Shown: one piece after another, positions 35,760 to 62,306 of the stretch
Layout: every line of letters starts with the position of its first letter
Position numbering within the stretch: the stretch's first letter is position 1
Assembly (NCBI GenBank): GCA_021805865.1
Contig: JAJZDX010000004.1
Coordinates: 1-64,000 of the forward strand
Origin: Pseudomonadota bacterium
Lineage (GTDB): Bacteria; Pseudomonadota; Gammaproteobacteria; Steroidobacterales; Steroidobacteraceae
Direction: 5' to 3'
Length of the DNA: 64,000 bases
The notes under the pieces: model-generated
What the model saw: only the letters and a program-made list of their open reading frames with translations
The model's database searches: none
Told to the model about the DNA's origin: nothing
Position numbers and translations under genes: made by a program

Positions 35760-35798
35760 TGGTATCGCTACCATCCTCCCGCATCCGCCGCTTGTCAA
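35760..35798 (-). promoter_or_regulatory. Promoter and LacI-type operator of the sugar symporter
   Basis: TGGTATCGCTACCA at 35760-35773 matches the regulon palindrome TGRTANCGNTAYCA. On the minus strand a perfect TTGACA -35 (35793-35798) lies 18 bp upstream of a possible -10 hexamer ATGGTA (35769-35774), so the operator overlaps the -10. The start codon is 14 bp further downstream. Confidence 0.75.
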
Positions 35799-35815: not shown

Positions 35816-36883
35816 TCAGTCGGCCGTGCCCTTGGGACGGGCCGCCGATTCGCGCGCCACCAGCTCGTAGGCGACCAGCCGGTGCGGGGACTCGACCGGA
35901 CCGTGACCCTTGCCGCCGCGCACCGCGGTAACCAACAGATCGACGGCCTCGCCGGCCATCTGCGCGATCGGCTGATGGATGGTGGTGAGCCCGGGCCAGA
36001 TCGTCGAGGCGATCAGACTGTCATCGAACCCCACCACGGTCAGGTCGTGCGGCACTTCCAGGCCGCGCCGGTGCGCTTCGGCCATGACGGCCGCCGCCAT
36101 GTCATCGTTGCTGGCGAAGATCGCGGTCGGCACCGGCTCGGTGGCGAGGAGCTTGCGCGCGGCATCGAGCCCGGAGCGGAACGTGAAAAAGCCCTGCTCG
36201 ACGCGCGGAGCGGGCAGGTGGCCGGCCTCCTGGACCACGGAGGAGAACCCGCGCCAGCGCTCCTCGCTCGCGCTCTGATTGGGGTGGCCCTTGATGAAGC
36301 CGAGCCGCTCGTGCCCGAGGGCGAGCAGGTAGCGGGTCATCTCCTGTGCCGCCGCGAAATCATCGATCCGCACACACATGAGATCCGCCGGCGGGCGCCC
36401 CGCGGCCACCGCCACGATCTGCATGTGCGCCGCCTGCAGCTCCGCGCGGATGACGGTCGACTCGCACAGCGGCGGCGGCAACACCGCGCCGACCGCGCCG
36501 CCGGAGACCAGCCGACGGACCGCGCGGCGGGACGCGGCGGGAGTGAGCTCGCACTTCTCCAGCACGAGCTGCACGCCGTGGCGGGTGGCGGCATCGAGCG
36601 CGCCGACCAGGAATTCGCTGAGGTAGGAAGCGCTCGGGTTGCCGTAGAGCAGGCCCATGCGCTCGCCGCGGGCGCTCGCGAGGTTGCGGGCGGCGATGTT
36701 CGGGGAGTAGCCGAGCCGGCGCACGGCCTGCAGCACCGTCTGGCGCGTGGCATCGCTCACATACTGGCTGCCGTTGACCACCCGTGAGACGGTCATCGGC
36801 GAAACGCCGGCATAACGGGCCACGTCCTTGATGGTTATGCTGCCGCGCGCACCGCTGCGGGTCTTGCGTGCCGGTTTGTTCAT
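35816..36883 (-). CDS. LacI-family repressor of the xylan/xylose locus
   Basis: 355 residues. The DNA-binding domain is ITIKDVARYAGVSPMTVSRV, with the hinge SPNIAARNLASAR near residue 60-73. A periplasmic-binding-protein-like sensor domain follows, with FIKGHPNQSASEERWRGF, AIFASNDDMAAAVMAEA and VVGFDDS as conserved features. Seven copies of a 14-bp palindrome in front of the surrounding sugar genes, including one at 37020-37033 upstream of this gene, make it the likely local repressor, responding to xylose, xylobiose or a uronate (inference). Similar XylR-type LacI proteins control xylan genes in Xanthomonas. Confidence 0.88.
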   Translation of the reverse strand: MNKPARKTRSGARGSITIKDVARYAGVSPMTVSRVVNGSQYVSDATRQTVLQAVRRLGYSPNIAARNLASARGERMGLLYGNPSASYLSEFLVGALDAATRHGVQLVLEKCELTPAASRRAVRRLVSGGAVGAVLPPPLCESTVIRAELQAAHMQIVAVAAGRPPADLMCVRIDDFAAAQEMTRYLLALGHERLGFIKGHPNQSASEERWRGFSSVVQEAGHLPAPRVEQGFFTFRSGLDAARKLLATEPVPTAIFASNDDMAAAVMAEAHRRGLEVPHDLTVVGFDDSLIASTIWPGLTTIHQPIAQMAGEAVDLLVTAVRGGKGHGPVESPHRLVAYELVARESAARPKGTAD

Positions 36884-38241: not shown

Positions 38242-38271
38242 TTGAGGCGACCGGTCTGGTAGCGCTATCAT
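38242..38271 (+). promoter_or_regulatory. Promoter and LacI-type operator of the GH67 gene
   Basis: TTGAGG (38242-38247), an 18-bp spacer, and TATCAT (38266-38271). The palindrome TGGTAGCGCTATCA at 38257-38270 includes almost the whole -10 box, so a bound repressor would block RNA polymerase. The start codon lies 40 bp downstream. Confidence 0.8.
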
Positions 38272-41377: not shown

Positions 41378-42628
41378 TCACCAGTCCCACATCGTGCCGT
41401 CCTCGAGACGCGCGATGGGCAGCTGCTTCGGACTGTAGGGATATCGCTCCGCCAGCTTCTCATCGAGGCCGACGCCGTGACCGGGACTCTCGCCGCAGTG
41501 CAGCCGCCCGTCGCGGAAAAGGTAGTCGTGCGGAAAGACCTCGAGAGTCTGCTCCGTGTGGCGCATGTACTCCTGGATGCCGAAATTCGGCACCCAGGTG
41601 TCAAAGTGCAGCGCCGCGCCCATCGTGACCGGTGAGAGGTCCGTGGCGCCGTGAAATCCGGTGCGCACCTGATGCAGGCCCGCGAGATCGGCGATCCTGC
41701 GCACGTGCGTGATACCCCCTGCGTGCACGATCGTCGTACGGATGAAGTCTATGAGCTGTCGCTCGATGAGGCGCTTCGAGTCGAAGATGGAATTGAACAC
41801 CTCGCCCACCGCGAGCGGCGTCACCGCATGGCGGCGGATCAGCTCGAAGCCATCGGGATTGTCGGCCGGCGTCGCATCCTCCAGCCAGAAGAGCCGATGG
41901 GGCTCGAGGTCACGGGCGAGTCTTGCCGCCTCGATGGGCGTGAGGCGATGATGTGCATCGTGCAGCAGCTCGAGCGAGCGGCCATGATCCGCGCGCAGCC
42001 GATCGAAGAGCTTCGGCACGAGGTCAAGATAGGCCGGGGTCGACCAGACCGTCTCGGCCGGCAGCTCGCTCTCGGCCGGCTCGTACGCGTTCTTCTCCCG
42101 CGTGACGCCGTAAGGCTTCTTCAGTCCCGGCACGCCGCATTGCGCCCGTACGGCGCGGTATCCCATCGAGACGAACCGCGCCACCTGCTCACTCGCCTCC
42201 CCGATGTCGCCTCCGCTCGCATGCCCGTAGACCAGTACGCCCTCGCGCGAGCGGCCGCCGAGGAGCCGATAAAGCGGCAGGCCCGCCATCTTGCCGAGAA
42301 TGTCCCAGAGCGCCACGTCCACCGCCGCGATCGCCGTCATGGTGACCGGGCCCCGCCGCCAGTACGCGCCCCGATAGAGGAACTGCCAGGTATCCTCGAT
42401 GCACCCGGCATCGCGCCCGATGAGGTTCGGGATCACGTGGTGATCGAGATAGGCCGCCACGGCGAGCTCACGCCCGTTGAGCGTGGCGTCTCCGAGACCC
42501 ACGACGCCCGAGCGTGTCGCCACCTTGAGCGTCACGAAGTTGCGCCCCGGACAGGTGACGATCACGCGCGCCTCGAGGATCTGCCGATCGCGCGCGGAGC
42601 CTTGCAACCCGGACTGAGCAATACTCAT
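41378..42628 (-). CDS. manD: D-mannonate dehydratase (enolase superfamily, ManD)
   Basis: 416 residues, very close in motif content to characterised Man[52 protein letters not shown] and [11 protein letters not shown]. Metal ligands Asp224, Glu250 and Glu276 have the 26/26 spacing of the Novosphingobium enzyme, and the catalytic Arg161, Tyr173 and His226 fall at the same +14 offset. It dehydrates D-mannonate to 2-keto-3-deoxy-D-gluconate, the step after glucuronate isomerisation and reduction. It follows the hexuronate-type MFS gene by 93 bp on the same strand and probably belongs to the transcript starting at 47.7 kb. Confidence 0.92.
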
Positions 42629-42721: not shown

Positions 42722-44002
42722 TCAGGGACGCGTTGCGGCCGCAGTATCGTGAACCGGCGTCCAATTGGGCGCCAGCACGTGAATCACCGCGAGCGCCAGC
42801 AGGTACATGCCGCCCGCGATGATGAAGAGCAACGCATAGCTGCCGGTCGCCTGCAGGACGAATCCCACCGCCGTCGATACCAGGGCGCCCGAGACCGCTC
42901 CGGCGAAGCCACCGAGGCCGACGACCGAAGCCACGGTCCCGCTCGGATACAGGTCCGAGGTCGTCGTGAAGAGGTTCGCCGACCATCCCTGGTGGGCTCC
43001 TGCCGCCAGGCCGATCAGCGCAACCGCCCCCCACAGGTCCTGCATCGAGGGCGCAAAGACGATCGGCACCACGGCAAGCGCGCAGATCAGCATCGCCACC
43101 TTGCGCGCCGCGTTGAGGCTCCACCCCAGTTTCAGGAACCGACCCGCAAGCCAGCCGCCGGCAATGCTGCCGGCATCGGCCATCCCGTAGATCACCACGA
43201 GCGGCGGACCGAGCCCGGTCAGGTCGAGCCCGTAGCGGTGGTGAAGGAACTTCGGCAGCCAGAAGAGGAGGAACCACCACACCGGGTCGGTCAGGAACTT
43301 TCCGGCTGCAAACGCCCACGTCTGACGGTGGCGCAGCAGATGCGTCCACGGGACGCGCGCGCTCGAGGCCGACTCCTGCTCATCGGCGCCGATGTACTCG
43401 AGCTCCCGCGCCGAGACACGCGGGTGGCGCTGCGGCGGACGGTAGACGAGAAGCCATGTGACCAGCCACAGCAGGCTCAGCGCGCTCGTCATGAGAAAGC
43501 CCGACCACAGGCCCCACAGGGACACCACGACCGGCACGGCGAGCGGCGCCACGATCGCCCCGATGTTCGAGCCGGCGTTGAACAGTCCCGTGGCGAAGGC
43601 CCGCTCGCGGCGCGGAAACCACTCCGACACCGTCTTCACCGCCGCCGGAAAATTGCCCGACTCGCCGAGCCCGAGCGCGAACCGCACCGCCGCGAAGGCG
43701 AGTACCGTGCGCACCAGCGCGTGGCTCGCGGCCGCCACCGCCCACACCAGGATCGCAAGCGCATAGCCGATGCGCGTGCCGAGCCGGTCGATGACGGCAC
43801 CGGCGAACACGAGGCCTATGGCATACGCGGTCTGGAAGGCGGCAACGATGTAGCCGTAATCGACCTGCGTCCAGCCGAGCACGTGCCCGAGCGTGGGAGC
43901 GAGCACGCCGAGCACCTGGCGATCGATGTAGTTGAGCGTCGTCGCCCAGAAGAGCAGCCCGCAGATGCCCCAGCGCAGTCGCCCGACCCCCTCGGGACTC
44001 AT
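42722..44002 (-). CDS. MFS transporter of the anion:cation symporter family (hexuronate-type)
   Basis: 426 residues and twelve membrane helices from ATG at 44002. ACS-family features: LNYIDRQVLGVLAP in TM1, AYAIGLVFAGAVIDRLGTRIGYA, GLGESGNFPAAVKTVSEWFPRRERAFATGLFNAGSNIGAIVAPL, and FWLPKFLHHRYGL in the second half. This is the ExuT/GudP type, so glucuronate or a related hexuronate is the likely substrate, matching GH67 and ManD next to it. The reading frame is open for another 101 codons upstream, but those encode an acetyl-xylan-esterase remnant; whether a fused protein is made is open. No strong ribosome binding site precedes the ATG. Confidence 0.85.
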   Translation of the reverse strand: MSPEGVGRLRWGICGLLFWATTLNYIDRQVLGVLAPTLGHVLGWTQVDYGYIVAAFQTAYAIGLVFAGAVIDRLGTRIGYALAILVWAVAAASHALVRTVLAFAAVRFALGLGESGNFPAAVKTVSEWFPRRERAFATGLFNAGSNIGAIVAPLAVPVVVSLWGLWSGFLMTSALSLLWLVTWLLVYRPPQRHPRVSARELEYIGADEQESASSARVPWTHLLRHRQTWAFAAGKFLTDPVWWFLLFWLPKFLHHRYGLDLTGLGPPLVVIYGMADAGSIAGGWLAGRFLKLGWSLNAARKVAMLICALAVVPIVFAPSMQDLWGAVALIGLAAGAHQGWSANLFTTTSDLYPSGTVASVVGLGGFAGAVSGALVSTAVGFVLQATGSYALLFIIAGGMYLLALAVIHVLAPNWTPVHDTAAATRP

Positions 44003-44062
44003 CGCCGCGGTGAGATCACGCGATTCGATCGGCCACCTCCCTCGCCGGCCCGGCCGGGTGAG

Positions 44063-44368
44063 GGACTCGTTCGGCACGAACCTGCCGCCGTGCACGAGGG
44101 AGGCGAGGACTTCCTGCGAGCGCTGCAGCCACGCGCCCTGCTTGTGCGGGGTGATGTTGTTGTGCGCGGACTCGATCATGGGCACCGCCTCCTTGGGCGC
44201 CGCAATCTCGTTGAGCTCCGTCCAGATGCCCGCCGGCGGCGCCGTCGTGTCGATGAACCGCATCGCCGCCAGCACCGGTGCGGTGATGTGCGGGGCGAAA
44301 TTCACCGTGTCGAAATAGCGCGCGGCCGAAAAGACCTGCCGGCTCGTCGTGTCGTAGTACGGGTACCC
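44063..44368 (-). pseudogene. Acetyl xylan esterase / cephalosporin-C deacetylase, C-terminal remnant
   Basis: About 100 residues of an AXE1-type alpha/beta hydrolase: GYPYYDTTSRQVFSAARYFD, NFAPHITAPVLAAMRFIDTT, PPAGIWTELNEIAAPKEAV, then ESAHNNITP and WLQRSQEVLASL. The catalytic Asp (RFIDTTAPP) and His (ESAHNN) regions are present, but the N-terminal two thirds with the nucleophile serine are missing. The original stop codon is lost, so the frame runs directly into the MFS transporter. Deacetylation of xylan would fit the locus; the function may be taken over by the SGNH esterase upstream. Confidence 0.75.
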
Positions 44369-44485: not shown

Positions 44486-45808
44486 TCATTGTGCCGCCGG
44501 CCGCCTTGCCCGCCGGGTGAAGAAGGAGAGCGGCACCGCAGCGGCCATCCGCCGATATCCGGCCGGATTCGGATGCAGGTTGTCACCGGAATCGTAAGCC
44601 GGCCGCAGCCGATGCGGATCGCTCGGATCGCGCAACACCCTGGCGAAGTGCGCGACCGCATCGAAGTGACCGGGAGCGCGGATCCAGGCGTTGACCTTCT
44701 CGCGGTCGGCCTCGGTCGCGGCCGAGGGATGGTAGTAGGTCGAGCCCATGAACGGCGGAATGGTGCCGCCCATCACCGGGATGCCATGGGCGTGCGCGCG
44801 CAGGATGATCTGCTTGTAGGCGCCGATGATGTGGCGCACCAGCGCCGCGTTCTGCACGGGGGTGAGCCGCTTGTGCATGGTTGCGGTGCCGAGGTCGTTG
44901 ACTCCCTCGAGCACGATGAGATAGCGCACGCCGTCCTGCGAGAGCACGTCGCGATCGACGCGCGCGAGGGCATTGGGTCCCAGTCCGTTCAACAACAGCC
45001 GGTTGCCCCCGAGGCCGGCGTTGAGCACCGACAGATCGCGGGTCGCCGGATGCCTCGCCAGACGCCGCGCCAGATCATCGGGCCAGCGGGTGTTGCTGTT
45101 GTTCGGGGTGGCATGCCCGTCGGTGAGCGAGTCCCCGAGCACGACGACGGCGGCGGCCGGACCATGCTTGAGAACATCGACGCCCGAGACGAAAAACCAG
45201 TGGGCGAATCGCTTTGCCCCGGGCAGGGTCGCCTCGGAGACATGCTCGCCGTGAACGAGGAACGAGGTCTGCCGGGAGCCCGGGTGACTGGTCTCGCGCG
45301 CCGGCGGGCGCCTCAGGTACATCGTGATCGCGAGGTTCGACAGCGGCGGGGCATCGAAGGCGATCGGATCGGAGTAGTACACCGCGCCCGCCGGAATGGT
45401 CACACCCGCGCGCCCGTTGAAGGTGAGCGCCGTGCGGGTCGATGCGTCGATGGCGCCTGTCCTCTGCGATACCGGCCTGGCGATGGAGACCGATTCGATG
45501 CGCAGCGGCCGGGTCCCGAAGACGTTTGACAACCGCACGCGAAGCTCCCTGCCGCCGAGGGTGAGATGCACGATCTGGCGCAGAGTCGCGTTGCGCAGCT
45601 CGGCCGGCGGCAGGGCGTTGCCCGGCTCCGGAATCTGCTGCGAGGCGGCCCATGTCCCCACCCAATGCGCCGGGGCCGGCAGAGGGACCCGCATGCCGGT
45701 ACCGGCGGCAACGCCGGCGCCGCCCGTGCCGGCCGTGCCGGCCGAGCAGCCCGCGCAGGCGAGCAGCGCGCACGCCAACATCACGCGGTTGAGCGGCCGC
45801 GCGCTCAT
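44486..45808 (-). CDS. SGNH/GDSL esterase, probable lipoprotein
   Basis: 440 residues. The N-terminus LNRVMLACALLACAGC has a lipobox with Cys21. A beta-rich N-terminal half (ATLRQIVHLTLGGRELRVRLSNVFG) precedes the SGNH domain with VVVLGDSLTDG, GGNRLLL, LEGVNDLG and DNLHPNPAGY, so Ser, Gly, Asn and Asp/His are all present. This arrangement is common in esterases of plant-polysaccharide loci; xylan or xylo-oligosaccharide deacetylation is the best guess. Its ATG overlaps the stop codon of the GH-like gene upstream (ATGA), so both are co-translated from the operator-controlled promoter at 47.75 kb. Confidence 0.87.
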   Translation of the reverse strand: MSARPLNRVMLACALLACAGCSAGTAGTGGAGVAAGTGMRVPLPAPAHWVGTWAASQQIPEPGNALPPAELRNATLRQIVHLTLGGRELRVRLSNVFGTRPLRIESVSIARPVSQRTGAIDASTRTALTFNGRAGVTIPAGAVYYSDPIAFDAPPLSNLAITMYLRRPPARETSHPGSRQTSFLVHGEHVSEATLPGAKRFAHWFFVSGVDVLKHGPAAAVVVLGDSLTDGHATPNNSNTRWPDDLARRLARHPATRDLSVLNAGLGGNRLLLNGLGPNALARVDRDVLSQDGVRYLIVLEGVNDLGTATMHKRLTPVQNAALVRHIIGAYKQIILRAHAHGIPVMGGTIPPFMGSTYYHPSAATEADREKVNAWIRAPGHFDAVAHFARVLRDPSDPHRLRPAYDSGDNLHPNPAGYRRMAAAVPLSFFTRRARRPAAQ

Positions 45809-47694
45809 GACCGTGCCCCCAAGGCCACGAGACTGTGCGGCTCGATCCGAAGCTCATAGCCGTACTCGGGCGGCGTGCCCGCCCGCCCGGGCGCGGCAGC
45901 CACCGGCTCCCCGTTCAAGTCCACGCCGGTGGTGAGGTCCACGAGGTGAGCCGATCCGTCGATCACACGCACGGCGACCGGATGGTTGCGGTAGGACTCG
46001 AGGACCAGGGCGCCGTTGCCGTATTCGAACAGGCTGACCCGCGCCGGTCCCTCGAGACGCGCCAGTCCCGGCGTGAGATAGTCCCTGAGCGCATCGAGCA
46101 CGCGAGGCGGCAGCGAGTAGAAATCGTTCTGCTCTTCGGGCACATTGAGCACGTACAGCTCACCCTTGCCATAGTGATCCATCAGCAGCAGCGGCACGCC
46201 GCCGTCATCATCGAGTCCTCGTATCACGGCCCAGTCCTCGTTGGTGTAGAAGTGAATCAGCGGAAAGAGGATCGGCCGGCTCGTGCCGATCATCGTGCCC
46301 GCGCCGAAGCCATAGCCTTGCACATAGCGGGTGGGCGCGGCGATCGAATGGGTAACGCGCATGTCGGTGACCTGATCGAACCCCCTCCTCTGCAGCACAC
46401 GCAGCAGGCCCGAGGTGATGATCACCCGGTCACCGGCCATCAGGTGCGACTCGATCTGCGGGATGATGTGCGGGTCCTGGCGCGCCGCTTCCGTCAGGAA
46501 CACGGTGTGGGCCTTCGGCCAATGCGGGTACATCTCGATCGGAATGCCGATCATGCCGAGCATCTCGGGCAGGAAGTCCTCGCCGCTGGAATCGAGCGGC
46601 CGGTAGGTCGCAAGGCCCCGCGGCTCGCCGAGGTGGCCCGCAATCCGGTCGACCTGGCGCAGCGCATAAGCGGCCACATCCGCAAGCCGGGGGTATCTGA
46701 AGCCGGGCGCGCCGGGTGCGCCGCAGCACTTCTTCATCATCCGCAAGTAGTTGAACGTGGTCGGCAGATACCGCCAGGCGGCGCGATTCTTCGGGTTGGC
46801 GATCCTGAGGAGGCTCGAGTACTCGAACAGATTGATCGCCGGCGCCTTGGCGAGGATCGTGTCCCAGAGCTGCTCGGCGTAGCGGTCGAGGTCATGCATC
46901 GCAATCGGGTCGACCCACCCGCCGCCGTTTCGGCCCGGGGCGATGTTCTCGAAGTAGCGGAAGATCTCGTAACTCTCGTAGGGCAACAGCTGTTGATCGG
47001 TGGTGGGCGCATAGCGCGTCTCATCGCCCGTCCAGATCTCGGGGAAGATCTTCGGCTCGTTCTTGAGATCGAACCCCATGCCCTGGAAGGACGGATAGAA
47101 ATTCGGGAACTTGATGATGACGCGTACCCGGGGATTGGCCGCCCGCGCGGGCTTCAGGATGAGATGGCGCGAGACCCAGTCCATGGTCTGCATGCGGTAT
47201 TGCGCCCACGTGCGCGCGCCCTTGGCGGCGATGTCCGCATCGCTCTTGGTGTTGAAGAAATACAGGTCGTCGAGGATGAACTCGTTGAAATGCCGGGCCG
47301 TGAGCGCCGACATGCGCCGCGCGAGCGCGCGGTCCTGCGGCAGCGCGTAATCGAGGGTGCGGATCTGTCCGTCCCCTGCCGGCGCGAGCATCGCCATGCC
47401 GCCGGCGACCGCGACGCCGTGGGAAAGAAAGAAGTGCTTGACTCGATCGAGCTGCGCCCCGTCGGCGCTCACCCCGGCCCGATAACTCTCGATGAACACC
47501 CGATCGACGTGCAGCGCCGAGCTGATCGTCCTCCAGCTCGAGCGCATCCACGCCGGATCGCTCGCCATGCGCTGCACGACGCGCACGGGGATGTAGACGG
47601 TGACCTTGAAGTTCCTGTACGGCCGCGGCGCGGCCAAGCACGTGGCGGTCACCATCGCGAGGACGAGCGCTGCGAACCACTTACTGCCTTTCAA
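45805..47694 (-). CDS. Secreted protein of unknown family, glycoside-hydrolase-like (paralogue 1)
   Basis: 629 residues from TTG at 47694, which has GGGGGA 4-5 nt upstream and starts a signal peptide (KWFAALVLAMVTATCLAAP). The first ~300 residues alternate strands and helices like a TIM barrel: FKVTVYIP, RVFIESYRAG, FILDDLYFFNT (Asp142-143), VRVIIKFPN and WTGDETR (Asp224-Glu225). A second domain (VIITSGLLRVLQ, VPLLLMDHYGKGELYVLNVPEEQ) recalls the class-I-glutaminase-like trimerisation domain of GH42 enzymes, and a small beta domain ends the protein (HPVAVRVIDGSAHLVDL, EPHSLVALG). A close paralogue is encoded at 52182-54110. The family is not recognised; a new xylan-active hydrolase is proposed. 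Confidence 0.85.
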   Translation of the reverse strand: MKGSKWFAALVLAMVTATCLAAPRPYRNFKVTVYIPVRVVQRMASDPAWMRSSWRTISSALHVDRVFIESYRAGVSADGAQLDRVKHFFLSHGVAVAGGMAMLAPAGDGQIRTLDYALPQDRALARRMSALTARHFNEFILDDLYFFNTKSDADIAAKGARTWAQYRMQTMDWVSRHLILKPARAANPRVRVIIKFPNFYPSFQGMGFDLKNEPKIFPEIWTGDETRYAPTTDQQLLPYESYEIFRYFENIAPGRNGGGWVDPIAMHDLDRYAEQLWDTILAKAPAINLFEYSSLLRIANPKNRAAWRYLPTTFNYLRMMKKCCGAPGAPGFRYPRLADVAAYALRQVDRIAGHLGEPRGLATYRPLDSSGEDFLPEMLGMIGIPIEMYPHWPKAHTVFLTEAARQDPHIIPQIESHLMAGDRVIITSGLLRVLQRRGFDQVTDMRVTHSIAAPTRYVQGYGFGAGTMIGTSRPILFPLIHFYTNEDWAVIRGLDDDGGVPLLLMDHYGKGELYVLNVPEEQNDFYSLPPRVLDALRDYLTPGLARLEGPARVSLFEYGNGALVLESYRNHPVAVRVIDGSAHLVDLTTGVDLNGEPVAAAPGRAGTPPEYGYELRIEPHSLVALGARS

Positions 47695-47751
47695 GCTTTC
47701 CCCCTTCCTCACGGCCGGGCGCCGGGAGCCGGCTCTTGGACCGTCCGGACG

Positions 47752-47780
47752 ATGATAGCGCTCACATTTTAGCTTGGCAA
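47752..47780 (-). promoter_or_regulatory. Promoter and operator of the GH-like/esterase/MFS/manD transcript
   Basis: On the minus strand TTGCCA (47775-47780), a 17-bp spacer and TATCAT (47752-47757) form a good promoter. The imperfect palindrome TGATAGCGCTCACA (47753-47766) covers the -10 box, as at the GH67 and xylB promoters. It is the likely entry point for the minus-strand series 47694 to 41378. Confidence 0.75.
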
Positions 47781-47839
47781 TTTCCACTCCGGCGGCACCA
47801 GGCCCGAGATCATCCTGAGTCACCGCATGCTTTGAGATA

Positions 47840-47853
47840 TGATATCGGTACCA
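47840..47853 (+). promoter_or_regulatory. LacI-type operator of the GH3 gene
   Basis: TGATATCGGTACCA, matching the regulon palindrome, 28 bp before the preferred GTG start of the GH3 gene. TATGAT at 47838-47843 could be the -10 box. With the site at 47753 it forms a back-to-back pair controlling divergent genes. Confidence 0.72.
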
Positions 47854-47880
47854 CAAAAGATGGCAGACAAGGGGAAGATC

Positions 47881-50247
47881 GTGTCGCGTTTCCGCATTTC
47901 ACGCCTCGGTCGGATGTGCACGCTCGCCATGGCACTGATTCTCGCCCAGGGGCTGGCGACTCAGGCGGTCCGTGCGGGCGCGCAGCCGCTCTACAAGGAC
48001 CCGCACGCTCCGGTCGACGCCCGCGTGAGCGATCTGCTGCGGCGCATGACGCTCCCGGAGAAGCTCGCGCAGATCACCTCGATCTGGGTCGACAAGTCGG
48101 AAATCGAAAACGCCGCGGGAGACTTCGATCCGGCCAAGGCGGCGCGCAATTTCCCCTACGGCATCGGCCAGCTCGCCCGTCCCGACGATTACACGCCCGC
48201 AAGCCAGTACCGGCTGCGCACCACGGCGCAGACCATCCGCTTCGTCAACGCCGTGCAGCGCTTCCAGATCGAGCACACGCCGCTTGGCATCCCGACGCTG
48301 TTTCACTCCGAGGGTCTGCACGGGTACGTGGCGCGCGGCACGACCAGCTTCCCGCAGGCGATCGCGCTGGCGAGCACCTGGGACCCGGCGCTCATCACGC
48401 GGGTGTTCCGCGTGGTGGCGCGCGAAGCGCGCGCCCAGGGCATCGGCATGCTGCTCACGCCCGTGATCAATCTTGGCCGCGACCCGCGCTGGGGCCGGAT
48501 CGAGGAAACCTTCGGCGAGGACCCCTATCTGGTCTCCCGGATGGGCGTTGCGGAAGTGCTCGGCCTGCAGGGCAGGACGCTGCCGCTTGGGCCTGCTCGC
48601 GTGCTCGCCGTCCTCAAGCACTTTGCCGGCTACGGTGTGCCGCAGGCCGGCACCAACGTTGGACCCGTGGAGCTCACGCACCGGGCTCTGCGCGAGATGT
48701 ACCTGCCCGCCTTCCACGCGGCGATCGAGCAGGCCCACGCCCAGGTCGTCATGGCCGCCTACAACGAGATCGGCGGGATCCCCTGCACGGACAATCCCTG
48801 GCTGTTTCGGACGGTGCTGCGCAAGGACTGGGGCTTCAAGGGCATCGTGGTGAGCGACTACTCCGGCATCGAGCAGCTCAAGACCCTGTACCACGTCGTG
48901 CCGAACCTCACCGATGCCGCGGCCCGTGCGCTCAACGCCGGGGTCGACGTCGATTTCCCCGATGGCCAGGCGTTTGCGCATCTGCCGCAGGCGCTCGCCG
49001 CAGGCAAGGTCACCCCGAGTGAGATCAACGCCGCGGTGGCGGGGGTGCTTCGCCTGAAGTTCCTCTCCGGGATTTTCGACCACCCCTACGCCAACGTCCG
49101 CTATGCCCGCAAGATCACCGATGACGCCGAGGCGCGCGCACTGGCGCTGAAGGCGGCACAGCAGGCGATCGTTCTGCTGAAGAATGACGGCACCCTGCCG
49201 CTGCATGTGCGCCGGCTGAAGACTCTGGCGGTGATCGGCCCGAACGCCGCCCCGGCGCGGCTGGGGGGCTACTCCGGCATCCCCTCCCACCCGATCAGCG
49301 TGCTGCAGGGAATCCGCGACTACCTCGGCAGCCGGGTGCGCGTCCTGTACGCTCCCGGGGTAAAGCTGCTCGCCTACGGCAACAAGAGCACCAACCGCGA
49401 AGTCCTGGAGCCGGCCGCGAAGAATCTTCCGCGCATCCGTCAGGCAGTCAGCGTCGCCCGCCGGGCCGATGCGGTGGTGCTGGTGCTCGGCACGAGCGGC
49501 GCCCTCTGCCGCGAAGGCTGGGCCACCTATCACCTCGGCGATCGGGACAGCCTGAAGCTGGTGGCGGACCAGAACCGGCTCGCGCACGCGATCTTCTCCC
49601 TCGGCAAGCCGGTGGTCACCGTTCTGATCAACGGCTGCCCGGTCACCGTCAACCGCATCCTCAAGAAGACCAGCGCCCTGATCGAGGGGTGGTACCTCGG
49701 GCAGGAAGGCGGCACGGCCATGGCGGACGTGCTGTTCGGCAAGACCGACCCGGGCGGCAAGCTGCCGGTGACGATTCCCCGCTCGGTCGGCATGGTGCCG
49801 TACAACTATGACGAGGAGCCGAGCGCGCACCGCGGCTACCTCTTTGCCGACAACTCGCCCCTGTTCCCCTTCGGCTACGGCCTCTCCTACACCACGTTCC
49901 ATATCGGCCGGCCGGTGCTGTCAGCGCGCGCCATCCCCGCGCGCGGCACGGAAACCGTGACCGTCACGGTGCGCAACACCGGCAAGGTCGCAGGGAGCGA
50001 GGTGGTGCAGCTCTACCTGCACGAGCTCGTCACCTCGGTGACCGAGCCGGTGAAGGCGCTGAAAGGGTTCAAGCGCGTGTGGCTCGGGCCGGGCGCCGCG
50101 ACCCGCGTGTCCTTCCGGCTCCGCTGGAAGGACTTCGCCATCTGGAATCAGCACATGCGCCACGTGGTCGAGCCGGGCACCTTCCGCGTGATGGTCGGGC
50201 CGGACTCGGTGCACCTGAAGGCGGTGACGTTCAAAGTCACCTCGTGA
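47881..50247 (+). CDS. GH3 beta-xylosidase/beta-glucosidase, periplasmic
   Basis: 788 residues from GTG at 47881, which has AGGGGAAG just upstream and begins the signal peptide (CTLAMALILAQGLATQAVRA). ATGs at 47839 and 47860 overlap the operator and lack a ribosome binding site. The GH3 N-domain shows DLLRRMTLPEKLAQ, LGRDPRWGRIEETFGEDPYL, LKHFAGYG and the nucleophile Asp326 in GIVVSDYSG. The C-domain (AQQAIVLLKNDGTLPL, GGKLPVTIPRSVGMVPYNY) and a fibronectin-III-like end (GLSYTTFHIG, VTVTVRNTGKVAGSEVVQLY) complete the family layout. In this xylan locus it should cut xylobiose and short xylo-oligosaccharides to xylose. Confidence 0.92.
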   Translation: MSRFRISRLGRMCTLAMALILAQGLATQAVRAGAQPLYKDPHAPVDARVSDLLRRMTLPEKLAQITSIWVDKSEIENAAGDFDPAKAARNFPYGIGQLARPDDYTPASQYRLRTTAQTIRFVNAVQRFQIEHTPLGIPTLFHSEGLHGYVARGTTSFPQAIALASTWDPALITRVFRVVAREARAQGIGMLLTPVINLGRDPRWGRIEETFGEDPYLVSRMGVAEVLGLQGRTLPLGPARVLAVLKHFAGYGVPQAGTNVGPVELTHRALREMYLPAFHAAIEQAHAQVVMAAYNEIGGIPCTDNPWLFRTVLRKDWGFKGIVVSDYSGIEQLKTLYHVVPNLTDAAARALNAGVDVDFPDGQAFAHLPQALAAGKVTPSEINAAVAGVLRLKFLSGIFDHPYANVRYARKITDDAEARALALKAAQQAIVLLKNDGTLPLHVRRLKTLAVIGPNAAPARLGGYSGIPSHPISVLQGIRDYLGSRVRVLYAPGVKLLAYGNKSTNREVLEPAAKNLPRIRQAVSVARRADAVVLVLGTSGALCREGWATYHLGDRDSLKLVADQNRLAHAIFSLGKPVVTVLINGCPVTVNRILKKTSALIEGWYLGQEGGTAMADVLFGKTDPGGKLPVTIPRSVGMVPYNYDEEPSAHRGYLFADNSPLFPFGYGLSYTTFHIGRPVLSARAIPARGTETVTVTVRNTGKVAGSEVVQLYLHELVTSVTEPVKALKGFKRVWLGPGAATRVSFRLRWKDFAIWNQHMRHVVEPGTFRVMVGPDSVHLKAVTFKVTS

Positions 50248-50405
50248 GGGGCAATGCAGCCGCCCGAAGCCGCTGGTCGAAGCCAGGCACCGCCCTGGCT
50301 TCCGGTGCGCGCTTCGAGCCCGAGCCGCTCCTCGGGCTGAACTTCGGCAAGAGGCGGCATCGCCGTACAATGCGTTTACCGATGCAGCACGGGGAAGACT
50401 GGGAC

Positions 50406-50879
50406 ATGACGAGAAAAATCGACCTTGCGGAGGCACCGACCCTGTTCGGCACGAGGTACCCCGCTCCCCACGATGAGCCCTGCCAGGCCCGCCGGCGCTG
50501 GCGGCTCGGGGACGCTGCGGGCCTCACTCAGTTCGGGATCAATCTGCTGCGCCTGCCGGCCGGACAATGGTCGAGCCAGCGCCATTGGCATTCGGCGGAG
50601 GATGAATTCGTCTATGTGCTCGAAGGGGAGGTCGTGTTGGTGAGCGATGACGGCGAGGAGGCGCTGCGAGCGGGCGAGTGCGCCGGCTTCAAGGCGGGCG
50701 AGCCGAACGGCCATCACCTGCAGAACCGCTCCGGCGCCGAGGCGGTGATCCTGGAGATCGGTGCCCGCAATCCGGAGCACGATGCCGTGCACTACCCTGA
50801 CATCGATCTGGCGATGCGCGCCGGAAGCCGTGAATTTCTGCACCGGGACGGCACGCCCTACCGTCGGCCTCCGGCCTGA
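50406..50879 (+). CDS. Cupin-domain protein
   Basis: 157 residues with one cupin domain: RHWHSAEDEFVYVLEGEVVLV carries two His and a Glu as metal ligands, and AGFKAGEPNGHHLQNRSG the last His. Relatives are annotated as sugar-phosphate isomerase-like or XRE-associated cupins, and a role in sugar handling is plausible but unproven. It follows the GH3 gene by 158 bp on the same strand and may share its operator-controlled transcript. Confidence 0.85.
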   Translation: MTRKIDLAEAPTLFGTRYPAPHDEPCQARRRWRLGDAAGLTQFGINLLRLPAGQWSSQRHWHSAEDEFVYVLEGEVVLVSDDGEEALRAGECAGFKAGEPNGHHLQNRSGAEAVILEIGARNPEHDAVHYPDIDLAMRAGSREFLHRDGTPYRRPPA

Positions 50880-51063
50880 GCTGCCCCCCGGGGATCGGCT
50901 CATTCACAGCAGGCGCGTGACGCGCGCGCCATGGGGGATGGACTGCGGGGCTGCGCGGGAGGCGCCATTGCGCGAGGGGCGCCTGTCCTCGTAATGACGC
51001 CACTGCCGATCCGGGTGCCCGCGGCCCCAAGCCTCGCCCTGCCGCCCCCTCGCTCCCTTGACA

Positions 51064-51942
51064 TCACGGCCGAGCTCGAAGCGACACCACGCTCAGCCGG
51101 ACCTCGCCCGTCAAGCGCTCCCCGGGCGCCAGCGTCGTCAATCCCGTGACCGCCGCCGATTCGGCACGGTTCAACGCATCGGGCATGTGGGTTACGGGCT
51201 CGATGCAGAAGAAATCCCATCCGGGGGGCGCATACAGGTGCAGCCAGCGCAAGGGCTCGGTCGCCGTCAGTCGCAGGCACAGCATCTGCTCCGGCCACTC
51301 CACCTGCGCCGCGCCGTTCCAGCCCGAATAACAGTGATCGATCCCGGTGTCCGACGGCAAGCGCCCGCCGCGGCTGAAATCGCCGAAGTGCGCCTCATCC
51401 TCCTGCCGCGTGGGCACGCCCTCCTCATCCGTAAGCCACACGCATCCCACTTCGGTGCGCAGCCGAAGACGCGGCGAGCGGCGCAGGTACGGATGCCAGC
51501 CGAGGCCGGCCGGCATCGGCCGATCGCCGCGGTTCTCCACCGAAAGCTCGACCACGAGCCCCTGCTCGCCGAGCGAGAGAACCTGGCGCGCGAGATAGGG
51601 CCAGGGCCACTCGCCGGCGGGATGCTCAAAGACCATTGCAACACGGCCGGCGTGCACCGACTCCACCCGCCACGGTTTGCGCCAGCCCTGACCGTGCAGG
51701 GGATGAGCCTGCCCCGGCGCGTTTCGCCGCAGTCGCACCTCCATGCCATTGAAACTGAACCTGCCGTGAGCGATGCGGTTGACGAACGGCACCAGAGGGA
51801 AAGCGGCGGTCTCGAGCGGCTCGTCCGCCTGCGGTGGTGTCGGGCGCAGCAGATCGATGTCCCGGAAGCGCAGCGCGCCGACGGCGCCGCCGAGCTCCGG
51901 AAGCGCATCGAGCCGGTAGTCTTCGGATGAAATGGAAATCAA
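51064..51942 (-). CDS. Aldose 1-epimerase (GalM-like)
   Basis: 292 residues from TTG at 51942. GAGG lies 5 nt upstream and the protein then begins LISISSEDYRLDALPELGG, exactly where the family starts; no ATG or GTG fits. The active-site His83 is in HPLHGQGW, His150 in GLGWHPYLR and the catalytic base Glu246 in FFCIEPVTHMPDA. It interconverts alpha and beta anomers, here probably of xylose before isomerisation. It lies downstream of the second GH-like gene on the same strand (239 bp gap). Confidence 0.88.
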   Translation of the reverse strand: MISISSEDYRLDALPELGGAVGALRFRDIDLLRPTPPQADEPLETAAFPLVPFVNRIAHGRFSFNGMEVRLRRNAPGQAHPLHGQGWRKPWRVESVHAGRVAMVFEHPAGEWPWPYLARQVLSLGEQGLVVELSVENRGDRPMPAGLGWHPYLRRSPRLRLRTEVGCVWLTDEEGVPTRQEDEAHFGDFSRGGRLPSDTGIDHCYSGWNGAAQVEWPEQMLCLRLTATEPLRWLHLYAPPGWDFFCIEPVTHMPDALNRAESAAVTGLTTLAPGERLTGEVRLSVVSLRARP

Positions 51943-52181
51943 TCTGACCTCGTGGCTTGCAGGAACAGCTCCCGTCCGATCAATGCCGCACGTCCTTCGT
52001 GCGCCGCAGCCGGCAGGGCAACGGGCCGGGCGGCGCAGCACGCCGGGCCCGCGCGATTGGCGGCGATGCCGCAATGGTCGCGGCCGCCGGGACAGGCCGC
52101 ATCGAGCGGCGCGGCCCGCCGGGTCTGCGTGGCGCGCGTCGGCGCGCGCCGCCTCGCCCTATCAAAGCTTCCGTCCTCGCA

Positions 52182-54110
52182 TCAGCGCACGCTGAACGCC
52201 CGATACGAATGCGGCGCGAGCCGCACCACGAAGCTCCTCTGCCCCTGCTCGCTCGGCAGCGGGCTCGGAGTCACGATCGGGGCCGGCAGCACCGCCCCGC
52301 CCGAGCGCAGATCGACGAGCTCATGCGCGCCGTGCTGCACGAAGATCCGTACCGTGACGGGCCTCGGCAGGTACGATTCGACGATGAACGTGTCGTTGTT
52401 GTAGGCGAACAGCGCCACGTGCGCCGGCGCATCGATGCGCACCGGGAAGCGCGCCATCAGATAGCCCCGCAGGGTATTCAGCACCGGCTCCGGCAGCCGA
52501 TAGAAATCGCCCATGTTGCTCGGCACATTGAGCACGTAGAGCTCGCCGCGCGAATAGCCGGTCATGAGCAGCACCGGCACACCGTGTGCCGCCGCCTCGC
52601 CCTGGATCACCGGCCAGCTGTCGTTGGTGTAGAAGCGGATCTGCGGGAAGATGACGCGCCGGGCGCGCTCTGCCGGCACGTTCAGGCCCGCGGTGCTACC
52701 GCCCGCGATGCTGCCGAGATAATGCCGCACGGCGATGGGCAGCCCCGTGTAAGTGATCTCGGCTACGCTGCGGATGCCGCGGTGCTCGCGCTCGAGCGCA
52801 TGCAGCAGCCCGGAGGTGATGATCACATCCCCGCCCGCGCGCAGCCGGGCTTTGATTTCCTTGACCAGGCTCGGGTCGGCGTCGGCCTCCTGGGTGAGCA
52901 GCACCATCGGCGCATGCGCCGGGAAATGCGGCACCAGGTTGATCGGAATGCCGATGTTGCCGAGGTAGTTCTGCAGGAAATCCTCCCCGCTCGACTGGAA
53001 CGGCTTGTAGCTCGCGATGCCGATGGGCTTGCCGAGCTTGCCGAGGAACTGATCGACCTGTCCGAGCGCGTAGCCGGCCACCTGCGCCCAGCCCGGCGCC
53101 GCCTCCGATCCCGGCGGCGCCTTGAACGAGCGCGCCATCGCGTTCCAGTCGAAGCTGGTGCGATCGTGCGCCCAGGCGTAGCGGTTGCCGGGCGCGACGG
53201 GCTGCGGAACCGCGAGCTGCGGCCAGCTGAACAGCGTGATTTCCGGCGCCTTGGCAAACAGCGTGTCCCACAGCTGCTCCGCATACCGGTCGACGTAACG
53301 GTCCCCGAAGGTATCGACCCAGCCGCCCTCATCTCCGTGCGGACGGATGTTGTGATAGTACCGATAGATCAGATAGCTCTCATATTGCTGCAGCATCTGC
53401 GCGGTGTGGACCGGATCGCGTGTCTCGTCCCCGGTGTAGATGCCGCTGAACATCTTCGCCTCGCGATCGAGATCGAAGCCCAGGCCCTGGAAGTGCTCGT
53501 ACCAGTTCGGGTACTTGATGATCACCTTGACGTGCGGGTTGATCCTGCGCGCCGCCCCGATGATCAGATGCTTGGCGACCCAGCGCATCTTGCGCAGCCG
53601 GTATCGGGTCCAGCTGAGCTTGCCCTTGGCCTTGATGTCGGCGTTGCTGCGGGTGTTGAAGAACGTGAAGTCATCCAGGATGATGGTATTGAAATGCCGC
53701 GCGGCCATGCGCACGGCTCGCTCGCACATGGCCACATCGTGCGGATTCTCGAAGTCGAAGGAATTGTACTGATTGTACTTGTTGCGGCCCGCGAACAGCG
53801 TGATGCCGCCATCGACCGCGATGCCCCGCCGCCGGAAGAACGCGGCGATCCGGTTGAGCGTCGCGGGATTGGCGAACACCTGATCGCGGTACACCTCGAG
53901 ATACACCTTGTTGAAGTGCACCTGGCTCCAGATGCGCTCGAACTGGCGGCGGAGCGTGCGCGGGTTGGCGAGCGCCCGCGTGGAGGTCACCGGGATGTAG
54001 ACGGCCACGCTGAAATTGCGGAACGGGCGTTGAGCGGGCACCGCGGCCGCGCTCGCCGCGGCCGCGCCGGCCAGCATCAGGCAGATGATTGCTGCTGAAA
54101 TCGTACGCAT
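52182..54110 (-). CDS. Secreted protein of unknown family, glycoside-hydrolase-like (paralogue 2)
   Basis: 642 residues with signal peptide RTISAAIICLMLAGAAAASA; AGGAGA precedes the ATG at 54110. It aligns with the protein at 45805-47694 over its length: VAVYIPVTS, VYLEVYRDQV (Glu72), TIILDDFTFFNT (Asp146-147), VKVIIKYPNWYEHFQGLGFD, IYTGDETRDP (Asp228-Glu229), GGWVDTF and DRYAEQLWDTLFAKAPEITLF. The glutaminase-like segment (VIITSGLLHAL, VPVLLMTGYSRGELYVLNVPSN) and the C-terminal beta domain (HELVDLRSGG, APHSYRAFSV) are kept. Conserved acidic residues on putative strand ends suggest a retaining hydrolase. It has its own operator at 54362-54375. Confidence 0.85.
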   Translation of the reverse strand: MRTISAAIICLMLAGAAAASAAAVPAQRPFRNFSVAVYIPVTSTRALANPRTLRRQFERIWSQVHFNKVYLEVYRDQVFANPATLNRIAAFFRRRGIAVDGGITLFAGRNKYNQYNSFDFENPHDVAMCERAVRMAARHFNTIILDDFTFFNTRSNADIKAKGKLSWTRYRLRKMRWVAKHLIIGAARRINPHVKVIIKYPNWYEHFQGLGFDLDREAKMFSGIYTGDETRDPVHTAQMLQQYESYLIYRYYHNIRPHGDEGGWVDTFGDRYVDRYAEQLWDTLFAKAPEITLFSWPQLAVPQPVAPGNRYAWAHDRTSFDWNAMARSFKAPPGSEAAPGWAQVAGYALGQVDQFLGKLGKPIGIASYKPFQSSGEDFLQNYLGNIGIPINLVPHFPAHAPMVLLTQEADADPSLVKEIKARLRAGGDVIITSGLLHALEREHRGIRSVAEITYTGLPIAVRHYLGSIAGGSTAGLNVPAERARRVIFPQIRFYTNDSWPVIQGEAAAHGVPVLLMTGYSRGELYVLNVPSNMGDFYRLPEPVLNTLRGYLMARFPVRIDAPAHVALFAYNNDTFIVESYLPRPVTVRIFVQHGAHELVDLRSGGAVLPAPIVTPSPLPSEQGQRSFVVRLAPHSYRAFSVR

Positions 54111-54360: not shown

Positions 54361-54389
54361 ATGGTACCGGTACCAGTGCAATTTGACCA
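54361..54389 (-). promoter_or_regulatory. Operator and promoter of the second GH-like gene
   Basis: TGGTACCGGTACCA at 54362-54375 is a perfect 14-bp palindrome of the regulon type. On the minus strand TGGTCA (54384-54389), 17 bp and TACCAT (54361-54366) form a promoter whose -10 lies in the palindrome. Confidence 0.7.
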
Positions 54390-54903: not shown

Positions 54904-54933
54904 TTGACACTCCCACCTTGATACCGCTACCAT
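54904..54933 (+). promoter_or_regulatory. Promoter and LacI-type operator of xylBA
   Basis: A perfect TTGACA (54904-54909), an 18-bp spacer and TACCAT (54928-54933). The palindrome TGATACCGCTACCA (54919-54932) covers the spacer end and the -10 box, the same geometry as at the GH67 gene. The coding start follows after 33 bp. Confidence 0.82.
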
Positions 54934-54966: not shown

Positions 54967-56424
54967 CTGTACCTCGGCATCGACATCGGCACCTCCAGCG
55001 TCAAGGCGGTGCTTCTCGAGGCGCACGGCGGCATCGCAGCCCAGAGCGCCTCCTCGCTCGAGGTGCGCCGCCCCTCCCCCGGCTTCTCGGAGCAGGACCC
55101 CGAAGCATGGTGGCAGGGCACGGTTCGCGCCGTCGCAATGCTGCCCAAAGATGCGCGCGCCGGGGTGCGCGCCATCGGGCTGTCCGGGCAGATGCACGGG
55201 GCGACATTGCTCGACGCTCAGGATCGGCCGCTGCGCCCCGCCATTCTGTGGAACGATGGCCGCTCGGCACAGGAGTGCCTGGAACTGGAGCGGCGCGAGC
55301 CCGCCTCGCGCGCGATCACCGGCAACATCATGATGCCGGGCTTCACCGCCCCGAAGCTGCTGTGGGTGGCCCGCCATGAGCCCGAGCTCTTCCGCCGCAC
55401 CGCCCACGTGCTGCTTCCAAAGGATTACGTCCGGTTGCGCCTGACCGGCGAGAGAGTCAGCGACATGTCCGATGCCTCCGGCACGGGCTGGCTCGATGTC
55501 GGCCGGCGGGACTGGTCCGATGCGATGCTGTCCGCGACCGATCTCACACGCGCGCACATGCCGCGGCTCGTGGAGGGCTCGAGCCCTTCCGGAGCGTTGA
55601 CCGCCGACGCCGCCGAGGCGCTCGGCCTGGCGCGCGTCGTCGTCGCGGGTGGCGGCGGGGACAATGCGGCGAGCGCAGTGGGCCTTGGCGTGGTGAGACC
55701 GGGACAGGCTTTCCTCTCGCTCGGCACCTCCGGAGTTCTGTTCGTGGTCACGGAGCGATTCCGGCCGAATCCGCAACGCGCCGCGCACGCGTTCTGCCAC
55801 TGCCTGCCGGAGCGCTGGCACCAGATGTCGGTGATGTTGAGCGCGGCAAGCACGCTTGACTGGATTGCGCAGACCGTCGGCTGCACCGACCTGGCGGACC
55901 TGGTGGAGCGGGCCGAGGCACACGGCCTGCACCGCCACTCCCCGCTCTTCCTGCCGTACCTGAGCGGTGAGCGCACGCCTCACAACGATCCGCACGCCCG
56001 CGGCGTGCTCTTCGGGCTGCGCGCGGATTCGACCGCCGCGGAGCTCGCCGGGGCGGTGCTCGAGGGGGTCGCTCTGGCCTTCGCGGACGGCCTGGACGTG
56101 CTGATCGAGAAAGGCGACCCGGTAGGGGAGATCAGCGTCACCGGCGGTGGCGCGCGCCTGCCCTACTGGGGCCGCCTCATCGCCGCGGCGCTGCGCCGGC
56201 CGCTCACGTACCGCGCGGGCGGGGAGGTCGGAGCGGCGCTCGGGGCGGCCCGGCTTGCGCGCCTGGCGGCGGGGGAGACCGAGGAGGCGGTGTGCGCCGC
56301 CCCGTCCGTGGAGCGCGTCATACAGCCCGACGCAGCGCTGTCCTCGCTCCTCGAGAGCCGCCGCCGAACCTTCCAACGCCTGTATCGGGATCTGAAGACC
56401 GCTTTCGTGGAGTTTTCCTCATGA
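54967..56424 (+). CDS. xylB: Xylulokinase with apparent CTG start
   Basis: 485 residues. The FGGY-kinase phosphate-binding motif (Y)LGIDIGTSSVKAV begins immediately at CTG 54967, where other xylulokinases have Met-Tyr-Leu-Gly. No ATG, GTG or TTG lies in frame upstream within the leader, and the first GTG (55009) would delete the motif. The substrate motif GLSGQMHGATLLD, the catalytic Asp232 in VVAGGGGDNAAS and LFLPYLSGERTPHNDP are intact, so the protein looks functional. It phosphorylates D-xylulose. Its stop overlaps the xylA start (ATGA). Either CTG initiates or the start codon is a recent mutation or sequence error. Confidence 0.9.
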   Translation: MYLGIDIGTSSVKAVLLEAHGGIAAQSASSLEVRRPSPGFSEQDPEAWWQGTVRAVAMLPKDARAGVRAIGLSGQMHGATLLDAQDRPLRPAILWNDGRSAQECLELERREPASRAITGNIMMPGFTAPKLLWVARHEPELFRRTAHVLLPKDYVRLRLTGERVSDMSDASGTGWLDVGRRDWSDAMLSATDLTRAHMPRLVEGSSPSGALTADAAEALGLARVVVAGGGGDNAASAVGLGVVRPGQAFLSLGTSGVLFVVTERFRPNPQRAAHAFCHCLPERWHQMSVMLSAASTLDWIAQTVGCTDLADLVERAEAHGLHRHSPLFLPYLSGERTPHNDPHARGVLFGLRADSTAAELAGAVLEGVALAFADGLDVLIEKGDPVGEISVTGGGARLPYWGRLIAAALRRPLTYRAGGEVGAALGAARLARLAAGETEEAVCAAPSVERVIQPDAALSSLLESRRRTFQRLYRDLKTAFVEFSS

Positions 56425-57737
56425 GTCTGTTTTCCAACATTGAACCGGTTCGCTTCGCGGGTCCGGATTCCTCGAGCGAGTATGCATTCCGCGTCTACGA
56501 CAAGGATCGCAAAGTGCTCGGCAAGCCCATGCAGGAGTGGCTGCGCTGTGCCGTGTGCTACTGGCATTCGTTCAACTGGCCGGGACAGGACATCTTCGGC
56601 GCCGGCACCCTGCCGCGGCCGTGGCTCGGCACCACGATCACCCAGGCCATGGCGGAGGAGAAGCTCGAAGCCGCCTTCGACTTCCTCTCGCGCCTCGGCG
56701 TGCCGTACTTCACGTTCCATGACGTCGACGCGATGGCCACCGCCACGACGCTCAAGGAGCACGAGCGCAACCTGAAGACCATCGAGGAGCGGATGCACGA
56801 GAGGATGGCCGCCACGGGGATGAAGCTTCTGTGGGGCACGGCGAACCTGTTCAGCCACCCGCGCTACGCCGGCGGCGGACCGACCAGCGCCGATCCGCAA
56901 GTGTTCGCATGGGCAGCCGCGCAGGTGCGCGGCTGCCTGGAGGCCACCCATCGGCTCGGAGGAGAAAACTACGTGCTCTGGGGCGGACGCGAGGGGTATG
57001 ACTCGCTGCTCAACACCGACCTCAAGCGCGAGCTCGATCACTACGGACGCTTCCTCTCCCTGGTGGTCGAGCACAAACACCGCATCGGCTTCAAAGGCAC
57101 CATTCTCGTCGAGCCCAAGCCCTTCGAGCCGACCAAGCACCAGTACGACCGCGACGTGGCCTCCGTCTACGCGTTCCTGCAGCGCTACGGACTGGCGCAG
57201 GACGTCAGAGTGAACATCGAAGTCAACCACGCCACCCTGGCCGGCCTCGATTTCGAGCACGAGGTCGCAGCCGCACTCGCCTACGGCATATTCGGCTCCA
57301 TCGACATCAACCGCGGCGATCCGCGCAACGGCTGGGACACCGATCAGTTCCCGAACAACGCCCAGGAGCTGGTGCCCGCGTTCCTGTCGCTCATCGAGAG
57401 CGGCGGCTTCAGCACCGGCGGATTCAACTTCGATGCGAAGCTGCGCCGCCAGTCGGTGGACCCGCTGGATCTGTACGTGGCGCACATCGGCGGCATCGAC
57501 ACGCTGGCGCGCGCGCTGCTTGCCGCCGCCGACATCGTGACCGAGCGCAAGCTCGCCCGGTTGAAGGAAGAGCGCTACCAGGGCTGGACTGGCGAGCTCG
57601 GCCGGCGGATCGAAAGCGGCGCGCTCGACCTCGCCGGCATCGCCGATCTCGCCACGGCGAGCGACTTGCAGCCCGCTCCCCGCTCCGGGCGCCAGGAGCT
57701 CGCCGAAAGCCTGCTGGCCCGCCACTGCAAGTACTGA
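56421..57737 (+). CDS. xylA: Xylose isomerase
   Basis: 438 residues, class II length. Active-site features: His100 and Asp in YFTFHDVDAMA, the metal site VEPKPFEPTKHQYD, EVNHATLAGLDFEHEV and INRGDPRNGWDTDQFP. It converts D-xylose to D-xylulose. The ATG overlaps the xylB stop by 4 bp, so the two enzymes are co-translated; the gene order xylB-xylA is the reverse of the enterobacterial one. The convergent cupin-like gene ends 20 bp after it. Confidence 0.95.
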   Translation: MSLFSNIEPVRFAGPDSSSEYAFRVYDKDRKVLGKPMQEWLRCAVCYWHSFNWPGQDIFGAGTLPRPWLGTTITQAMAEEKLEAAFDFLSRLGVPYFTFHDVDAMATATTLKEHERNLKTIEERMHERMAATGMKLLWGTANLFSHPRYAGGGPTSADPQVFAWAAAQVRGCLEATHRLGGENYVLWGGREGYDSLLNTDLKRELDHYGRFLSLVVEHKHRIGFKGTILVEPKPFEPTKHQYDRDVASVYAFLQRYGLAQDVRVNIEVNHATLAGLDFEHEVAAALAYGIFGSIDINRGDPRNGWDTDQFPNNAQELVPAFLSLIESGGFSTGGFNFDAKLRRQSVDPLDLYVAHIGGIDTLARALLAAADIVTERKLARLKEERYQGWTGELGRRIESGALDLAGIADLATASDLQPAPRSGRQELAESLLARHCKY

Positions 57738-62305: not shown

Positions 62306-62306
62306 A

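Follow-up and report, generated by a model that had tools for sequence, protein, structure and literature searches.

Glycoside hydrolases (GHs) of families GH42, GH164 and GH151 are the described enzymes closest in architecture to two paralogous, apparently secreted proteins, A (45805..47694, minus strand) and B (52182..54110, minus strand), encoded in a 64,000-nucleotide stretch of a Pseudomonadota genome (assembly GCA_021805865.1, contig JAJZDX010000004.1, positions 1 to 64,000), the whole of which is referred to as the window. GH42 (5e9a, 1kwg and 5xb7; beta-galactosidase or alpha-L-arabinopyranosidase) is the nearest full-length fold, trimerisation-type domain included. The GH164 beta-mannosidase Bs164 (6t5o, 6t6g) has an identical three-domain layout, and the available excerpt of its description places catalytic Glu160 and Glu297 on strands 4 and 7 (PMC7105311). 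In the GH151 alpha-L-fucosidase ALfuk2 (6tvk) a barrel, a Rossmann-like domain and a beta domain follow in the same order, and a strand-4 Asp and a strand-6 Glu, given as Asp154 and Glu235 in the excerpted account (PMC10154630), lie at a spacing similar to that in A and B. The barrel fold is also common to the GHL10 protein Cwp19 (5oq2) and GH153 PgaB (4p7q, 6au1); according to excerpts of the respective papers, these differ in their domain partners (cell-wall-binding or deacetylase domains), Cwp19 carries Asp195-Asp196 on strand 4 and a Gly at the strand-7 position (PMC5765458), and D474 is the probable acid of PgaB (PMC5933820). A and B are very probably glycoside hydrolases of some kind, and a substrate derived from hemicellulose is rather likely; a GH151-like catalytic pair is proposed more tentatively, at somewhat less than an even chance.

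Predicted fold and conserved acids

A (629 residues, assuming a TTG start) and B (642 residues) match each other over their full length, with 44% identity across 618 residues (pairwise alignment, E 9e-170), confirming the coordinates and the paralogy given in a first-pass annotation of this DNA. Both proteins contain the motifs ILDD and TGDETR, and both begin, as judged by eye, with the signal-peptide-like N-terminus that the annotation had described. The number of copies was underestimated, since the genome (4.68 Mb, completeness rating 98.75%) encodes a third paralogue at C21:29038-30948 with 78% identity to B. B and the third copy share one clade of four in a tree built from 80 sequences, and A lies far off on a long branch, which leaves its exact position unsure; A and B are old paralogues, and B and the third copy are a closer pair.

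The structure predicted for B consists of a glycoside-hydrolase-like barrel, a Rossmann-like or trimerisation-type domain and a C-terminal beta domain, which is a GH42-like layout, and the barrel-like first half suggested earlier is thereby upheld. Barrel strands in the model end at residues 39, 75, 103, 145, 200, 228, 266 and 294, and assignment by DSSP places D146 and D147 after strand 4, E229 after strand 6, D266 at the end of strand 7 and E72 within strand 2. E72, D146, D147 and E229 (B numbering; Asp142/143 and Glu225 of A correspond to D146/D147 and E229) are identical in all 297 aligned sequences, in agreement with the conserved acids that had been singled out from the two motif-bearing proteins. 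E278 was invariant among the first 79 sequences, yet is kept in only 225 of the 297. A clustering of the conserved acids had been set as a check, and the invariant residues do concentrate at the C-terminal mouth of the barrel, where 15 of 33 fall within 64 of 270 positions (p 0.003, with the zone drawn by hand). R75, K199, R231 and R310 are likewise invariant, and we speculate that they might suit a negatively charged sugar.

The acids after strands 4 and 6 agree in strand placement, in all 297 sequences, with the arrangement of the GH151 enzyme, and may form a catalytic pair of that type. The stretch 'FLD' of 6tvk, which we take to be its strand 4, aligns by motif with D146, whereas the motifs of Cwp19 and GH42 point to D147; either residue may be the active strand-4 acid. 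No match to 6tvk was found among PDB sequences for A, B or the family profile, and hhalign comparison with two GHL6-type proteins that match 6tvk gave shallow alignments with a probability of at most 4.1%.

An unlikely alternative is that the catalytic acids are D147 on strand 4 and D266 on strand 7, the clan GH-A positions used in GH42 and GH164, with each Glu replaced by Asp; the two Asp would be further apart, and an inverting mechanism or another bond geometry would therefore be favoured. GH42 and GH164 are indeed the best full-length fold matches of the B model, both families carry their acids on strands 4 and 7 (PMC7105311, as excerpted), and the acid closing strand 7 is Asp in 296 of the 297 sequences and Glu in one, a putative counterpart of the GH42 nucleophile, a Glu. 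However, such an assignment leaves the invariant E229 without a role, and all 297 sequences end strand 4 with Asp-Asp, where GH42 has Asn-Glu and GH164 has its acid/base Glu. The GH42 profiles are also unmatched: with A and B, no Pfam family, PF02449 included, was retrieved at E 1, and hhalign against 25 GH42 proteins gave probabilities of 0.8-3.7%. The likeness to GH42 noted in the first-pass annotation thus holds for the fold and the three-domain layout, but not for the strand-4 signature or the sequence profiles, and because both of these are missing it is a resemblance of fold only. By the tests made here, membership in GH42, GH164 or GH151 is not supported, each lacking at least one tested feature. 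For GHL10 and GH153 there was no Pfam match, and hhalign probabilities did not exceed 1.0% with four GHL10 proteins and four proteins that we recognised as presumably PgaB-like.

Family membership and distribution

A and B retrieved no family at E 1 from the Pfam copy searched or from NCBIfam, and among PDB sequences each found one chain (E 0.69 and 0.43), nothing convincing; a profile built from 79 relatives found no PDB chain. The 79 relatives, scanned singly against Pfam, had no family in common, and their best match, SupH-like_C (E 0.0079), occurred in one of the 79 and was regarded as chance. Three precomputed Pfam accessions, PF28584, PF28585 and PF27250, are attached to relatives and delimit three domains; PF28584 is absent from the Pfam copy searched and was not found in the open-licence literature. 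The earlier statement that the proteins belong to no recognised family is accordingly correct for that Pfam copy, NCBIfam and the PDB, but not for the newer accessions. No described family was found in the open-licence literature, where absence is weak evidence, and a plasmid search found nothing. GHL6 matches occurred in 11 of 150 Pseudomonadota genomes, every one below the cut-off; nine of the 11 loci were inspected by eye, several appearing amylase-type and one GH29-like.

At E 0.001, with 8,000 candidates scored for each protein, at least 6,212 homologues were found for B and at least 5,388 for A. The listings give 120 for each protein; few of the 120 for B are named, nearly all of these as 'hypothetical protein'; two are called 'voltage-gated potassium channel Kch', a name that fits nothing observed. 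In the genome collection, 407 of 421 pattern-matched stretches encode a relative, and the best 80 of the 407 were retained as relatives' loci. Sequences in the tree come from Pseudomonadota, Acidobacteriota, Verrucomicrobiota, Bacteroidota, Ignavibacteriota, Planctomycetota, Myxococcota and FCPU426. Among 274 sampled genomes of the class, full-length copies were present in the window's own genome only, and one other genome gave a 49-residue match with two stops; the family is sparse in this sample, though close relatives carrying it exist outside the sample. As judged from sequence comparison, A and B belong to a large family for which the searches made here found no function.

Gene neighbourhood and operator-like sites

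Within the window, A and B stand among genes of hemicellulose and sugar metabolism, and the hemicellulose setting described in the first-pass annotation was borne out. The open reading frame (ORF) of an SGNH/GDSL esterase (44486..45808, minus strand; nearest solved relative the SGNH hydrolase 7tog) starts at 45808 and overlaps the end of A (45805) by ATGA, which makes the suggested co-translation of the two plausible. Divergent from A lies a GH3 enzyme (47881..50247, plus strand, GTG start inferred) whose best solved relatives are the beta-xylosidase 7zb3 and the xylosidase 8c7f. Further genes encode a GH67 enzyme of the alpha-glucuronidase family (38311..40617, plus strand), a ManD-type protein (41378..42628, minus strand) whose solved relatives are named D-mannonate dehydratase, an enzyme of glucuronate catabolism, an MFS transporter (42722..44305, minus strand), an aldose 1-epimerase family protein (51064..52074, minus strand), an FGGY sugar kinase that is xylulokinase-like by context (55009..56424, plus strand) and a xylose isomerase-like TIM-barrel protein (56292..57737, plus strand). 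A sugar transporter (34247..35746, minus strand) and a LacI-family regulator (35816..36883, minus strand) complete the set.

Operator-like palindromes recur next to many of these genes. Palindromes of the TGRTANCGNTAYCA type occur at 11 sites in the genome, compared with three for a reversed-pattern control, and within the window the motif TGRTACCGGTAYCA, allowing up to two mismatches, is matched six times where 0.06 would be expected. Two of the 11 sites (on C14 and C83) lie inside ORFs and were set aside as probably chance. Seven are on the contig of the window, at 35760, 37020, 38257, 47840, 54362, 54919 and 70312, next to genes for the sugar transporter, which is directly downstream of 35760, the LacI-type regulator (35760 and 37020), the GH67 enzyme (38257-38270), the gap between A and GH3, B and the sugar kinase. 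The site 146 bp before the start of A (TGATATCGGTACCA, 47840-47853) sits in the divergent gap and is shared with the GH3 gene, whereas B has its own site 252 bp before its start (TGGTACCGGTACCA, 54362-54375); the earlier claim of an own operator for both therefore applies to B but not to A. The kinase gene has TGATACCGCTACCA upstream (54919..54932). With a further site 132 bp upstream of the third copy, every paralogue has one at a distance of 132-252 bp. The LacI-type protein is inferred to be a candidate reader of these sites.

The site at C45:70312 is flanked by a TonB receptor gene and a gene whose TPR-type product carries a glycosyltransferase 41 domain, an adjoining pair found just past the window (L088:3934-9339). 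On C35 of the same genome (L085:6887-12562), a GH9-like gene with a TonB receptor gene behind it has an operator-like site 54 bp upstream and is apparently in the same regulon. Elsewhere in the genome, the one GH29 match and the two GH42 matches stand side by side at C83:264603-270038. At 60758-63962 the window also contains a tryptophan halogenase-type gene beside an ORF that has no match in Pfam and by eye resembles the terminal part of an outer-membrane receptor; more halogenase-type genes occur in the same genome (L088:2265-3902) and near a family member at L013:334-1836.

Neighbourhoods of relatives

Neighbours of family members were counted in 78 of the 80 loci, leaving out the fragments L017 and L059, from crude scripted ORF calls. 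Window-type GH3 genes were found near family members in 18 loci, TonB receptors in 16, ManD in 14, members of a GH31 cluster in 10 and GH67 in 8. The family members in all eight loci with GH67, and in all loci with ManD except L044 (13 of 14), are closely related to that of the window (best segment at least 69% identity).

Other relatives lie in xyloglucan-type gene sets. A Sphingomonas locus (L035) combines GH3, a GH35/GH42-like enzyme with DUF5597, a SASA-type esterase and a member of the GH31 cluster, and the order at L013 is GH31, family member, GH27, GH29, GH31. GH95 genes occur near L029, L046 and L064, and BNR/Sortilin-matching beta-propeller genes, which we take to be GH74-like, form a cluster present in six of the 78 loci (L029 and L066 were scanned) and adjoin the family member in L066. 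By comparison, the excerpted account of the Xanthomonas citri xyloglucan locus lists GH74, GH31, GH35, GH95 and CE20, and names no further hydrolase of unknown kind (PMC8245568).

The genes immediately next to the family weigh against a tight link to carbohydrate genes. A set of 99 nearest genes was taken from L013 on (one on each side, at least 180 residues, within 1.5 kb; L017, L041, L052, L053, L054, L057, L058, L073 and four genes above 1,110 residues are omitted, and L059 is not listed). The set is mixed: among the 25 most frequent of its 121 families, no carbohydrate-enzyme family is seen more than four times, and unrelated families are equally frequent. The substrate suggested earlier, xylan or arabinoglucuronoxylan, is at most a candidate; some relatives stand in xyloglucan-type loci and others beside genes with no link to carbohydrates.

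Proposed activity

The most economical reading is that A and B are exported, probably retaining glycoside hydrolases acting on decorated oligosaccharides derived from xylan or xyloglucan, the mechanism and substrate being inferred. More specifically, a GH151-like mechanism acting on a side group of such oligosaccharides is put forward as a possibility falling a little short of even. As in the GH151 alpha-L-fucosidase and GH29, the nucleophile would be D146 or D147 of the ILDD motif on strand 4, and the acid/base would be E229, which follows strand 6. Such a retaining enzyme would act on an axially linked sugar, either periplasmically or extracellularly. Once the side group is removed, the beta-xylosidase-like GH3 enzyme, GH67 and the esterase encoded nearby would be able to proceed. 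Genes of GH29, GH27, GH31 or GH95 lie near some relatives, which makes alpha-L-fucose, alpha-galactose and alpha-xylose less probable as targets in those cases. An alpha-L-fucosidase was set aside as the likely activity: with GH29 or GH95 near L013, L029, L046 and L064, it would be redundant in those loci.

It is quite improbable that A and B instead cleave the backbone, as endo- or chain-end-acting hemicellulases that replace missing xylanases and feed short xylo-oligosaccharides to GH3 and GH67. Models for GH10, GH11 and GH30 had no hits in this nearly complete genome, consistent with the first-pass suggestion of an activity not otherwise seen here, but the search did not extend to GH5, GH8, GH98 and GH141, and the GH43 model found three places, two of them above the cut-off. 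All three paralogues have operator-like sites and two stand beside GH3 genes with beta-xylosidase relatives (7zb3 is the best solved relative behind the third copy too); however, a GH9-like gene also carries such a site. When the barrel alone was submitted to Foldseek, GH10 xylanases were among the matches, at a weak and unspecific TM of about 0.41-0.49. GH42-like trimers, on the other hand, act mostly on chain ends of small substrates, and where a GH74-like gene is near a family member an endo-enzyme is already present. It is very unlikely that the family represents a hitherto undescribed class of hemicellulases standing in for the missing GH10, GH11 and GH30 xylanases, built as a GH42-like trimer and using Asp on strand 4, Glu on strand 6 and Asp on strand 7 for catalysis; if true, this would be an active site unseen in the GH42-type families compared. 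That the family consists of glycosidase relatives that only bind carbohydrate or are enzymatically dead is highly improbable, for although no characterised enzyme of the family was found in the sequence and open-licence literature searches, the invariance of E72 and of D146, D147 and E229 at the barrel mouth would be unusual in a dead enzyme.

A founding activity would annotate a family of at least 6,212 homologues and might supply a missing function in hemicellulose loci. It would also test whether GH42-like architectures can accommodate an active site of GH151 type in proteins other than GH151.
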